From assembly GCA_024278935.1 (NCBI GenBank), contig JAJRSF010000039.1, forward strand, positions 1 through 53,759: a stretch of DNA of 53,759 nucleotides. Reading direction: 5' to 3'. Below the pieces are notes generated by a model that saw only the letters and a list, made by a program, of their open reading frames with translations, ran no database searches and was not told the DNA's origin. The DNA is from Candidatus Zixiibacteriota bacterium (lineage in GTDB: Bacteria > Zixibacteria > MSB-5A5 > GN15 > FEB-12). The position numbers were made by a program, and so were the translations under genes. Positions 16,141 to 34,176 of this stretch are shown piece by piece; position 1 is the stretch's first letter, and the number at the start of each line of letters is the position of its first letter.

Positions 16141-18189
16141 ATGAAAAGTTACAAAGATTTTAAAATAGGAACTAAATTATATTCTGGTTTCGGAGCAGTT
16201 TTAGTTTTACTTGCGGTTGTCGCTTTTATGTCCTACGACAACCTTATGAATACTGAAAAAGGTTTTATTAACCTAATTCATGGCGATATTTCCATTGAAA
16301 TACAAAATGCCAATATTGATCGTTATATGCTTCAGGCACGTCGAAATGAAAAAGACTTTCTGCTACGTAAAGAGATTAAGCATCTAGAGAAAGTCGACAA
16401 AGCTGTAGCCAACCTCAAAAAGGAAGCGAATTTGTTACTTGAACTGGAGCAAAAAGCAGGCAACCAACAAGGTATTAAAGATGCAAATTTAATTCTGGAG
16501 TATGCTGATCAATACTTAGACGGTTTCCACAATATAGTAAAGGAATATCAGACAATAGGATTGGATCATGCTTCTGGTTTACAAGGTCAGTTCAGAGTTG
16601 CAGCAAGTGAGTTAGCAGGTATTATCAATAATGCAAATGAGCAACTTCTTCAAATCAACCTATTGACAATCAGAAAAGAAGAAAAAGATTATTTGCTACT
16701 CGGTGATGAAAAATACATCAAACGCACTATTGATAAATTAGCAACCCTGCAATTAAATGCTTATGCAAGCGGTTTGAGTGCCGAGGATAAAATTGCTGTT
16801 AAAATTACAACTCAGAAATATGAAAAAGGTTTTCTAAAACTTGTAGAGAAGAACATAGCAATAGAAAAGAATATGATTGTTATGATTGATGCTGCCAACA
16901 AATTAGAACCGATTGTTAATGAAGGGTACTATAGTGCTAAAGAGAATGCAACTGCTAAGGAAATTTTGACAATTGAAACTGCAGAAAGTAATGCCCAGAT
17001 ACCTATTTGGATATCCGCAATCGCCCTCTTGATGGGTGGCTTCATCGCTTTCTATGTGGCACGCATTATCTCTCGTCCAATTTCAGACATCGCCACTATA
17101 GCCGAACTCATCTCCACCGGTGATATCGACCATACAATCAAAGTAAATTCAAAAGATGAAACCGGACAACTGGCGCAATCATTCCAGAACCTGATAAATT
17201 ATATGAAGGAACTAGCCGAAGCAGCCAATCAGATTGCCTCCAACAATCTTACTATTGATGTCAAACCAAAATCAGACAAAGATGTTCTAGGTAGTTCTTT
17301 TACAAAAATGATTTCAAACCTAACCGGAGTAGTACATCAACTAAACGCGACTGCAGAACAAGTTGTTTCTGCTGCCACTTAAGTTGCATCTTCTTCTGAA
17401 CAAATGTCTCGCGGTGCTAAAGATCAAACAGATCAAGTTACACAGATTTCCACCGCAATTGAAGAAATGACTGTAACCATTGTAGAGTCTTCAAAAAATG
17501 CCGGCGAAGCCAACAGTGCCGCTGATCAAGCAGGTCAAACTGCTGGTGATGGTGCCCAAATTGTAAGTGAAACTATTCAGGGTATGCAGGAAATAGCAAA
17601 TGTAGTCAAAGAATCAGGAGAATCTGTAGCTAAATTAGCACGATCAGCTGATCAAATTGGTGAAATCGTTGGAGTCATTGACGATATTGCCGACCAAACT
17701 AATCTGCTCGCATTAAACGCTGCTATTGAAGCTGCCAGAGCAGGTGAACAAGGACGTGGCTTTGCTGTTGTTGCTGATGAAGTGCGGAAACTTGCTGAAC
17801 GTACCGGTAAAGCAACCAGTGAAATTACAGATATGATCAAAGGTATTCAAGTTGAAACAAACGAAGCTGTTCAGTCTATGGAAAAAGGTGTGAAAGAAGT
17901 TGATCACGGTCGTGAATTAACTGATAAAGCCGGTTCAAGCTTGAACGAAATCGTAACTATGTCCGGTCAAGTTGTTGATATGATTCAGCAGATAGCAACA
18001 GCATCTGAAGAACAATCATCAGCCGCTGAACAGATTTCTCAAAACATGGAAAATATAGCATCCATCGCAAGAGAATCTGCCACAGGTGCCGAACAATCTG
18101 CCGCAGCTGCCGAACAACTAAACCAAAACGCTGAAGGTATGAAACAAATAGTTGGTCAATTCAAAATAAACGAAACTACCAACGCCTAG
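16141..18189 (+). CDS. Methyl-accepting chemotaxis protein, interrupted by in-frame UAA at 17380-17382
   Basis: Restored length is about 682 residues. A first membrane helix (about 14-31) precedes a long helical periplasmic sensor ([11 protein letters not shown] and [16 protein letters not shown], the helical-bimodular type). A second helix lies at about 283-306, then HAMP, then the signalling hairpin with [20 protein letters not shown] and [18 protein letters not shown]. Codon 414 is TAA, in SAAT[16 protein letters not shown], where receptors of this kind carry Gln; a single CAA to TAA change explains it. The downstream piece has an ATG at 17404 but no membrane part. CheW follows 15 bases later, so the pair forms a chemotaxis unit. 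Ligand unknown. As written, the gene would be non-functional unless the stop is an error. Confidence 0.88.
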
Positions 18190-31042: not shown

Positions 31043-31432
31043 ATGCGATTTAAAATTATAGCAATGAGTATTATTCTTTTTCTTATCTGTTCGTGTGCAA
31101 TTCAAGCAGAAGGTCGTCATTTTATTGATTTTGATGGGGACGGATTTAGTGATAATATCATAGATTTTGATAACAATAGTATTCCCGATGAATTCCAATC
31201 TAAAGTCAAAGAGCTCAAATCACATACAAGAACTTTTACGTTTTCTCCGACAGCTTTGTTTTCTGACAAATCAAAAGATGTCAAACTTACTGTTTCTCAA
31301 AAATTTAGTTTACATCAATTTAAAGCAAGACAACTTGCTAAGTGTCGGTCCAATTTTGATTCCGATTTTAACTCAGGCTTAAGTGCAGGTGCATCGTCCG
31401 GTGGTGGATGTGTGGGAGGCGTTTGTTTCTAA
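31043..31432 (+). CDS. Small secreted Asp-rich protein with C-terminal CX4C tail
   Basis: 129 residues with an export signal at the N-terminus. An Asp-rich EF-hand or thrombospondin-type-3-like segment (DFDGDGFSDNIIDFDNNSIP) probably binds calcium. A basic middle region is followed by a Gly/Ser-rich tail ending CVGGVCF. I do not recognise the family. GAGG precedes the ATG. The stop overlaps the start of the next gene by one base (TAATG), so the two are coupled. The terminal cysteine pair is notable beside a thiol-redox protein two genes downstream. Confidence 0.75.
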   Translation: MRFKIIAMSIILFLICSCAIQAEGRHFIDFDGDGFSDNIIDFDNNSIPDEFQSKVKELKSHTRTFTFSPTALFSDKSKDVKLTVSQKFSLHQFKARQLAKCRSNFDSDFNSGLSAGASSGGGCVGGVCF

Positions 31433-32649
31433 TGAAAAAAATAATATTTTTAATAAGCATACTTCTATTTGTAACAGGCTCTTTGTTTGGACAAACTTTT
31501 TATAATGCCGAAGTAACAGTTAGAGCTTCAAGTACAGACAATCTGTTCAAAAACTCTTCTGACTCATCCGATAATTTCGCCTCAACAAAAGCATCACTAA
31601 ATTTGTATCCACTACACTTTTCCGAAATAAATATCTTCACTGAATACACAAAATATAACAAAAACAACAATCTCTCAAATCTCAACTACGGCGGTGGTCT
31701 TACTCTGATGCCTTTGAGTGACTCTTCACTCTTTTCAATTTACATGAATATGAATTACAAGGGGTACCGTTACAAAGAAGATACTCTTACGACAAGTACA
31801 ACTAGCAGTACAGAATTTTCTGACAAAAACATCAATGGAGTTGTTGCCTTAGGTTATCAATTAAACGAAACAACAAGTTTGCGAACAGGGTTCAATTATT
31901 CGTTAGTAGGATATGCTTCTGATTCCGATTTTGTTTCCGACAAATCTCTTAATGAAATTTTTACCGGATTAAATCTTTCTCTGTTTGGATCTAATGCCAT
32001 TGATTTCGAAGCTGGGTACTCTTTTGAAAAGTATGACTATCTCCCTGAGTATGATTCTGTCTTTAATAGAACCTATGGAATCGACAGAATAAATGCTTAC
32101 AATCGCTTAGAAGAGTCCGATTTAAATTCTTATTATGTTTCGTTACGATACTCAAGACCTCTTGGCAAAAAAACCGGTTTCTCACTAAGTTATTCTTATA
32201 GGAATTTCACAGAGAGCAAAGATTCTGCTTTGATACTAGGTTCATCATCGGGCTACTTATCTCCATGGGTAAATTCTTATGATGGCAACACAACTCTCGC
32301 TAAATTCAAAACCTACCTTGTCCCCTATACTATTATAAGCTTTGGTGTCGGATATTGGAACTCTTCATATTTAAAGACACTCGAATCTGTATCTATTTTA
32401 AACCCTCTTTATGACCCTTATTATGATGACCCTTCTGCTGAGTTTACTACAACTGTCCATACCAGAAATGCTCAAGGTCGTAACGATGATAAGTACCGCA
32501 TATTCATGACCGTTTCTGTCCCGATTGTGACATCGTCTGGTCGGTTGTTTGAGCCATCATTAAATATTGATTATACTGACAATGAATCAACAATCGCAAA
32601 TTATACGTATAGTGATTTTTCCATCATTTTAAGCATAAACATTAGATAG
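31432..32649 (+). CDS. Outer-membrane beta-barrel protein
   Basis: About 405 residues. The start at 31432 (GGGAGG upstream) overlaps the previous stop by one base. A signal peptide (LLFVTGSLFGQ) is followed by long amphipathic strands with periplasmic turns throughout, for example VSLRYSRPLGKKTGFSLSYS. The C-terminal strand is SDFSIILSINIR, ending in Arg rather than an aromatic residue. I recognise no specific family. It may export, anchor or display the small Asp-rich protein encoded just before it. Confidence 0.78.
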   Translation: MKKIIFLISILLFVTGSLFGQTFYNAEVTVRASSTDNLFKNSSDSSDNFASTKASLNLYPLHFSEINIFTEYTKYNKNNNLSNLNYGGGLTLMPLSDSSLFSIYMNMNYKGYRYKEDTLTTSTTSSTEFSDKNINGVVALGYQLNETTSLRTGFNYSLVGYASDSDFVSDKSLNEIFTGLNLSLFGSNAIDFEAGYSFEKYDYLPEYDSVFNRTYGIDRINAYNRLEESDLNSYYVSLRYSRPLGKKTGFSLSYSYRNFTESKDSALILGSSSGYLSPWVNSYDGNTTLAKFKTYLVPYTIISFGVGYWNSSYLKTLESVSILNPLYDPYYDDPSAEFTTTVHTRNAQGRNDDKYRIFMTVSVPIVTSSGRLFEPSLNIDYTDNESTIANYTYSDFSIILSINIR

Positions 32650-32775: not shown

Positions 32776-34176
32776 ATGGACAACAGGAAATCGACTTTGT
32801 GGACAATCATTTGTATTATTGTCCTCACTCTTTCAGTTTCCCTTTCAGCAACAATTCGCGACAATGTTTCAATCGTTCGCGAGAAATCAATTATCAACAT
32901 TGATAATAACAATGAAAGTGCTTTAAAAAGTAGTTCGGCTGTGTATACAGGTAAAATAAAAGTACATATAATCGAACCTGATTCACGATGGATAGACTAT
33001 ACAGGCGTACATTATGATAACGCACATTTATTCTATGCTGTTTTGGCAAACTTTACCGCACCTGAAGCAGGCATTTGGGATACAACTGTGACCATTGATG
33101 CTGCATCTTATGGATTCCCGGGTGTAACAGTAGACAATATTGGTTCTGCCGTAGCAGTCTTTACTGACAATGATGTTCTATGTGATGCTGACCCACCTAA
33201 TGGAAATTGGTTTAATGCAAATTATGCCGATGCCTCCGCAATGGCATATCCCGGAATAAAAGGCGAAAACGAAACTAAGCCTGGATTCACACATTCTGTT
33301 TTCATTGAAGAAGGTACTGCCACTTGGTGACAATATTGTCCTCGTGCGCGTGTCGCACTCTTTCTTATTGAAGCATCAGGTGATTACCTTTTGAATCATA
33401 TCGCCTTAGTTGGTGATTCAAATTCCCAAGCCGCTGATCGGCTTAACAATGATTATAATTTTGCCGGTTACCCGACTGTCTTCTATGATGGTGGTGACAC
33501 TGTTGGTGTTGGTGGTTCTACCAGTCAGGATTATTACAGAGGTCGTATTGAAGTAGCCGGAGCGAGACCGGTTCCTAATTTAGATGTCATAATGAGAATG
33601 GAACATATTAGCGGTACTGATTATGAAGTACAGGTAAAGGTCGGCAATGGTGTCCTCGCTAATCGCGACCCATCTATTCCTGTCGTCAACGGATCCCAAG
33701 CAACCGAAGCTGGTATTCAAAATAATTATAAAGCTATTTCTACTGATGATGATTCTGACAAGCTCTTATATCAGTTTGAATTTTCAGATGGAACGACAAC
33801 AGAATGGTTAGGACCTTTTGACTCAGGTGATAGCTGTTCGGTAAATCATACATGGGCACAAAATGGTACCTATAATATCAAAGTCCGTACGCAAGACCCA
33901 TGGGATGTCATCACTGATTGGTCTCCACTTTATTCTGTACAAGTAGGCTGTTGTGTTTCTGTAAGAGGAAATGTCGATGGTGACTTCGGTGACAATACTG
34001 ACATTTCAGATTTAGTCTTTTTGGTTGATTTCATCTTCACGGGCGGACCAGGTCCTATTTGTCTCTATGAAGGTAACGTCGAAGGTGATGCAGGAGAGAA
34101 TATTGACATCTCCGATCTCGTTTATATCGTAGACTTTATCTTTACTGGTGGACCAACTCCGCCGGCTTGCCCATAG
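32776..34176 (+). CDS. Secreted thioredoxin-like (Omp28-related) protein with probable selenocysteine and dockerin-like tail
   Basis: 466 residues if UGA at 33328-33330 is read through. The start at 32776 has GAGGAG upstream and opens a signal peptide. The thioredoxin-like domain holds EEGTATW-U-QYCP at residues 182-189. The stop takes exactly the first Cys position of a CXXC redox motif, with Cys188 as partner, and the frame continues with conserved sequence (SGDYLLNHIALVGDSN, then FAGYPTVFYDGGDTVGVGG with the cis-Pro element). The C-terminus has two Ca-binding dockerin-like repeats (DISDLVFLVDFIFTGG). A GC-rich hairpin 14 bases after UGA fits a bacterial SECIS. Likely role: extracytoplasmic thiol/disulfide or peroxide chemistry. 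A mutated Cys codon is the alternative. The selenocysteine machinery genes are not in the window. Confidence 0.8.
33344..33358 (+). promoter_or_regulatory. Candidate bacterial SECIS hairpin
   Basis: GTGCG (33344-33348) pairs with CGCAC (33354-33358) around the loop CGTGT. The second loop base is G, 20 bases after the UGA codon. Known bSECIS rules ask for a stem of about 4 or more pairs, a small loop with G in its first two bases, and a loop roughly 16-37 bases from UGA; all are met. Folding was judged by eye. Confidence 0.6.

Follow-up and report, generated by a model that had tools for sequence, protein, structure and literature searches.

In bacterial hairpins of the bSECISearch type, which direct selenocysteine (Sec, U) to a UGA codon as selenocysteine insertion sequences (SECIS), a stem of 4-16 bp carries a loop lying 16-37 nucleotides (nt) after the UGA (PMC13188914, Fig. 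2 legend). The 2026 selenoprotein catalogue in the same paper has 119 entries, none of them a PKD or dockerin protein, and the entry nearest to the family described here is a UxxC protein with the NCBIfam model NF045500 (GOS_C). We analyzed a stretch of 53,759 nt (the window; contig JAJRSF010000039.1, assembly GCA_024278935.1) from a Candidatus Zixiibacteriota bacterium, in which one gene is interrupted by an in-frame UGA codon. This codon is very probably decoded as selenocysteine. An earlier note, made from the DNA letters alone, had proposed a selenoprotein here, and that call is now supported by homologs that carry only UGA or Cys at the codon, by the Sec machinery of the genome and by a hairpin tied to the UGA. 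Dozens of relatives share both the codon and an RNA hairpin of this type, so that the gene seems to belong to a genuine selenoprotein family.

The reading frame opens with an ATG at 32776, reaches the UGA at codon 185 in the residue context TATW-U-QYCP, and continues for 281 further codons to a TAG at 34174-34176; the UGA thus stands at the first CXXC position of a coherent open frame, as had been claimed. From the N to the C terminus the gene encodes a hydrophobic stretch resembling a signal peptide, a beta-rich region, a thioredoxin-like region with the UxxC motif and an invariant Pro, a PKD domain and acidic repeats. The Pro, which lies in a YPT sequence and corresponds to the cis-Pro-type element of the earlier note, does not vary in the alignments. 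Termination and Sec insertion are generally known to compete at the UGA of bacterial selenoprotein genes, and a 184-residue form ending at the UGA could be the functional product here, with the downstream part decayed or subject to regulation by selenium. We consider this highly unlikely, since the downstream codons are constrained as protein: the third-codon-position excess persists 3' of the UGA, identity to the closest relative is 62% over 120 post-UGA codons (G000, the window genome, versus G002), and the Cys, Pro and Gly that follow the UGA are invariant in the alignments.

The window genome and 60 relatives were searched for homologs, which gave 45 alignable genes, the window gene included (set 1), and a phylum-wide search gave 29 further genes, used as a held-out set (set 2). 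At the Sec position set 1 has 27 UGA and 18 Cys codons, set 2 has 20 UGA and 9 Cys codons, and neither has any other, so that all 74 homologous genes from this phylum (47 UGA, 27 Cys) carry one of the two residues expected for residue 185 of a selenoprotein. The closest relative, G002, is 55-59% identical and also has UGA. When five closer sequences were used as a profile against genome contigs, five named loci were found, including Candidatus Zixiibacteriota and division GN15; a search of plasmids gave no match. Decoding of UGA as another amino acid (a reassignment to Trp or Gly), or unspecific read-through, would be in keeping with UGA being the rarest of the stops in the window. However, UGA is still used as an ordinary stop there, by 6 of 44 open reading frames, and in the homologs it alternates with Cys only and is tied to the hairpin, while tRNA-Sec and selB are present in the genome; such decoding is barely credible.

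A SECIS-like hairpin had been claimed 3' of the UGA, and it was found in that place, with stem strands at 33344-33348 (GTGCG) and 33354-33358 (CGCAC) around the loop at 33349-33353 (CGTGT). When the published bSECISearch rules were applied by script, the hairpin agreed with the loop rule, the spacing and the stem length and fell short of the energy threshold. Synonymous-codon shuffles of the window gene produced a hairpin of this kind in 2% of trials.

For the comparison among homologs we used a strict rule (loop sequence N-G-[G/U]-N(-N), 4 bp or more in the stem, a distance of 14-26 nt from the codon to the loop, energy of -3.5 or lower). In set 1, 20 of 27 UGA genes fitted this rule as against 0 of 18 Cys genes (Fisher 3e-7), and 200 rounds of synonymous shuffling of the UGA genes yielded on average 0.47, and never more than 2, rule-fitting hairpins. 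Because the rule had been shaped on set 1, it was applied unchanged to the 29 later genes, where it was fitted by 18 of 20 UGA genes and by 0 of 9 Cys genes. With the energy limit dropped, a hairpin was found in 45 of the 47 UGA genes, its loop 17-22 nt from the codon. All 45 have the inner four pairs of the stem, as the selection rule demands, yet each of these pairs shows 4-6 pair types, and the fifth pair, which lies outside the rule, is paired in 39/45 (shuffled mean 22.2, maximum 31). Judged from these alignments, UGA genes conserve the hairpin, and its stem covaries.

Sixteen changes between Sec and Cys are needed on the tree, at least eight of them on well supported branches. In a sign test on the tree, which is the conservative test here, the hairpin changed only in the direction of the codon among independent pairs (median p 0.03). 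One Cys homolog (G108a, L140) keeps a weak SECIS-like hairpin, AUGCA-AGUGC-UGCAU, plausibly a relic of a Sec ancestor left after a Sec-to-Cys change. Neighboring copies of the gene were seen on the same contig in G023, G024, G040, G046, G049, G051 and G059 (L082-L084, L086, L087, L090, L092), and several of these pairs consist of one Sec and one Cys form. Another homolog (G094b, L124) has, 88 codons before its Sec codon, a further in-frame TGA.

The genome containing the window (3.4 Mb, 95% complete) has all four genes for which a check had been proposed: selA (505 bits), selB (314 bits), selC, encoding a tRNA-Sec (64.5 bits) with the anticodon UCA, and selD (372 bits), all above curated cut-offs. 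SelD itself is of the Sec type at the usual site (AGUASK), and its hairpin has the loop AGUUU, 19 nt after the UGA, with an energy near that of the window hairpin; the selD UGA and this predicted hairpin serve as a positive control from within the genome. An in-frame UGA is also present in selA. A Sec reading of that codon was rejected, as no SECIS-like hairpin was found 3' of it and relatives have Leu.

Several observations weigh against the Sec reading of the window gene or against the picture of its product. The window hairpin, at -4.9 kcal/mol, is weaker than the -7.5 of the published model, and the 60-nt stretch folded alone was no stabler than shuffles (z 0.52), so that the window hairpin alone carries little weight and the case depends on the comparison among homologs. 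The Fisher values are overstated, because the sequences are related and not independent. One UGA gene (G059b) has no recognizable hairpin, and G043, in an assembly that is 93% complete, has a UGA gene without selA and without selB at the limit used. In the window genome the selA TGA (L018:3711-3713, G000:C64) falls where nearly all relatives have Leu and where G003, of the same genus, has TTA; if real, it would leave this strain unable to make Sec. Two other genes are likewise interrupted: dsbD (L144, G000:C43:38699-39337) has an in-frame TAG just before its PCTYPM motif, and a methyl-accepting chemotaxis protein is split by a TAA at window positions 17380-17382 into a HAMP half (16141-17379) and a signaling half (17404-18186) in one frame. 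As to the protein, AlphaFold models were poor (pLDDT, the predicted local distance difference test score, 33.8 from a single sequence and 51.5 from six), and for this reason the putative thioredoxin-like fold rests on the motif, the order of helices and strands and sub-threshold thioredoxin and glutaredoxin matches.

Because dsbD and the chemotaxis gene are interrupted as well, by TAG and TAA, base error or gene decay is the more likely cause of the selA TGA than recoding. The same three single-codon stops would favor the view that the window gene, too, encodes an ordinary CxxC protein and owes its UGA to a nonsense mutation or to an assembly error. Against this, the same codon is UGA in 46 further homologs from other assemblies, nearly all with the covarying hairpin, none of the homologs has TAA or TAG there, and the closest relative is among those with UGA. 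For the window gene an error or mutation is thus very improbable, and for the family it is, on the sequences of the relatives, already refuted. Assembly error, pseudogene formation and code reassignment were all rejected as sole explanations.

The thioredoxin-like part was not recognized above cut-off by any Pfam or NCBIfam model. Membership in the Omp28-related selenoprotein family NF045500 (GOS_C) has in its favor that both have a UxxC motif in a thioredoxin-like region, together with a weak local match around the motif (E 0.0057). This match, however, scores 16.1 bits where the cut-off is 200 and aligns only 27 residues, none of the 61 genomes searched has a protein over the cut-off, and among the matches listed nearly all fall in the C-terminal part of the model. 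Omp28 (PF11551) did not match the window protein, and only one of 20 relatives touches it, below threshold (E 0.037). Membership therefore seems unlikely and any kinship would be remote, and the label Omp28-like, given in the earlier note, finds no support at the thresholds of either family. The rest of the domain picture drawn there also changes: the dockerin models of Pfam did not match the C-terminal stretch (residues 394-466) at E 0.1, which leaves the proposed dockerin tail without support, and a PKD domain, matched in addition by PDB 4xed (E 1e-15), had been overlooked. Titles and abstracts of the literature on selenoproteins together with Omp28, Zixibacteria or dockerin held nothing relevant, a survey outside whose scope most subscription journals lay. 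The suggestion of a new or little-described family stands within the family libraries, the catalogue and the literature checked, and the window family is an uncatalogued selenoprotein family of a known kind. The better AlphaFold model (pLDDT 51.5) has the order strand-helix-strand-helix, and Foldseek found no significant match; conclusions from the models were rejected on both grounds.

The genes next to the selenoprotein gene are listed in Table 1 with the features described above. The product of the gene immediately upstream matched no family model for a barrel. Every one of the 37 genomes with the thioredoxin-like gene also has this putative beta-barrel gene, and of the 24 genomes without the former, 19 lack the latter as well (Fisher 1e-11); in 31 genomes the barrel gene lies on the same strand within 3.5 kb of the thioredoxin-like gene, and in 26 it is upstream.

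Table 1. Positions, in window coordinates, of the selenoprotein gene, its elements and the genes of its neighborhood
Feature	Position	Strand	Remarks
Selenoprotein gene, 466 codons including Sec185 (predicted)	32776..34176	+	Open reading frame with TGA read as U; 74 homologous genes (45+29)
UGA codon, residue 185, first position of UxxC	33328..33330	+	Only UGA or Cys at this codon in 74 homologous genes
Resolving Cys codon (putative), second Cys of UxxC (Cys188)	33337..33339	+	Invariant alignment column C129/C134
bSECIS-type hairpin (predicted), 5-bp stem GUGCG/CGCAC, loop CGUGU	33344..33358	+	Loop 18 nt after UGA
PKD domain, residues 297-374	33664..33897	+	Pfam PF18911 (PKD_4), 31.4 bits, cut-off 27, E 2e-7
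Putative outer-membrane beta-barrel protein, conserved partner gene	31435..32649	+	Barrel judged by eye from sequence
Small secreted or lipoprotein-like protein, upstream in the conserved neighborhood	31043..31432	+	Homologs beside barrel and thioredoxin-like genes in several genera

On the established model of Sec insertion, SelB would bring Sec-tRNA(Sec) to the hairpin loop, bind this loop and insert Sec at the UGA. The hydrophobic stretch at the N terminus suggests export of the protein through an N-terminal signal. Sec185 would be the attacking selenolate of the UxxC site and Cys188 the resolving residue, and the protein would catalyze thiol-disulfide exchange in the cell envelope, in this scheme probably together with the adjacent beta-barrel protein. 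The motif makes such an envelope redox role somewhat more probable than its absence, and the case for a functional partnership with the barrel is about evenly balanced. It is a tentative idea that the Sec-thioredoxin and the adjacent barrel form an undescribed outer-envelope redox module of Zixibacteria-type bacteria, with Sec at work beyond the cytoplasm, perhaps on the cell surface, and exchanged with Cys on eight or more occasions. The genome encodes DsbD, which could supply electrons, although its gene has the in-frame TAG.

The family adds to the known selenoproteins one whose genes would be truncated at the UGA by a standard bacterial gene caller. Sec and Cys have often been exchanged in it, with gain and loss of the hairpin, which amounts to a natural experiment on the benefit of selenocysteine in an exported disulfide-active protein, and the same exchanges can inform how SECIS elements come and go in bacteria. 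The conserved neighbor, the putative beta-barrel gene, offers a first handle on the function of this thioredoxin-like selenoprotein family.

In comparison with known systems, the window hairpin is like bSECISearch-type elements (PMC13188914) in loop, spacing and stem length and differs from them in being weaker than their energy threshold, its strength being about that of the genome's own selD hairpin. With thioredoxin and thiol:disulfide interchange selenoproteins (PF00085, PF13098) the window protein has in common a predicted Sec at the attacking position of UxxC and the invariant downstream Pro; unlike them, it has no Pfam thioredoxin match, and two relatives touch PF00085 (best E 0.013). 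With NF045500/GOS_C (PMC2398784, PMC13188914) the family shares the UxxC in a thioredoxin-like region, the occurrence of both Sec and Cys homologs and an extra C-terminal part, but this part consists of a PKD domain and acidic repeats where the NF045500 model has a different C-terminal part.
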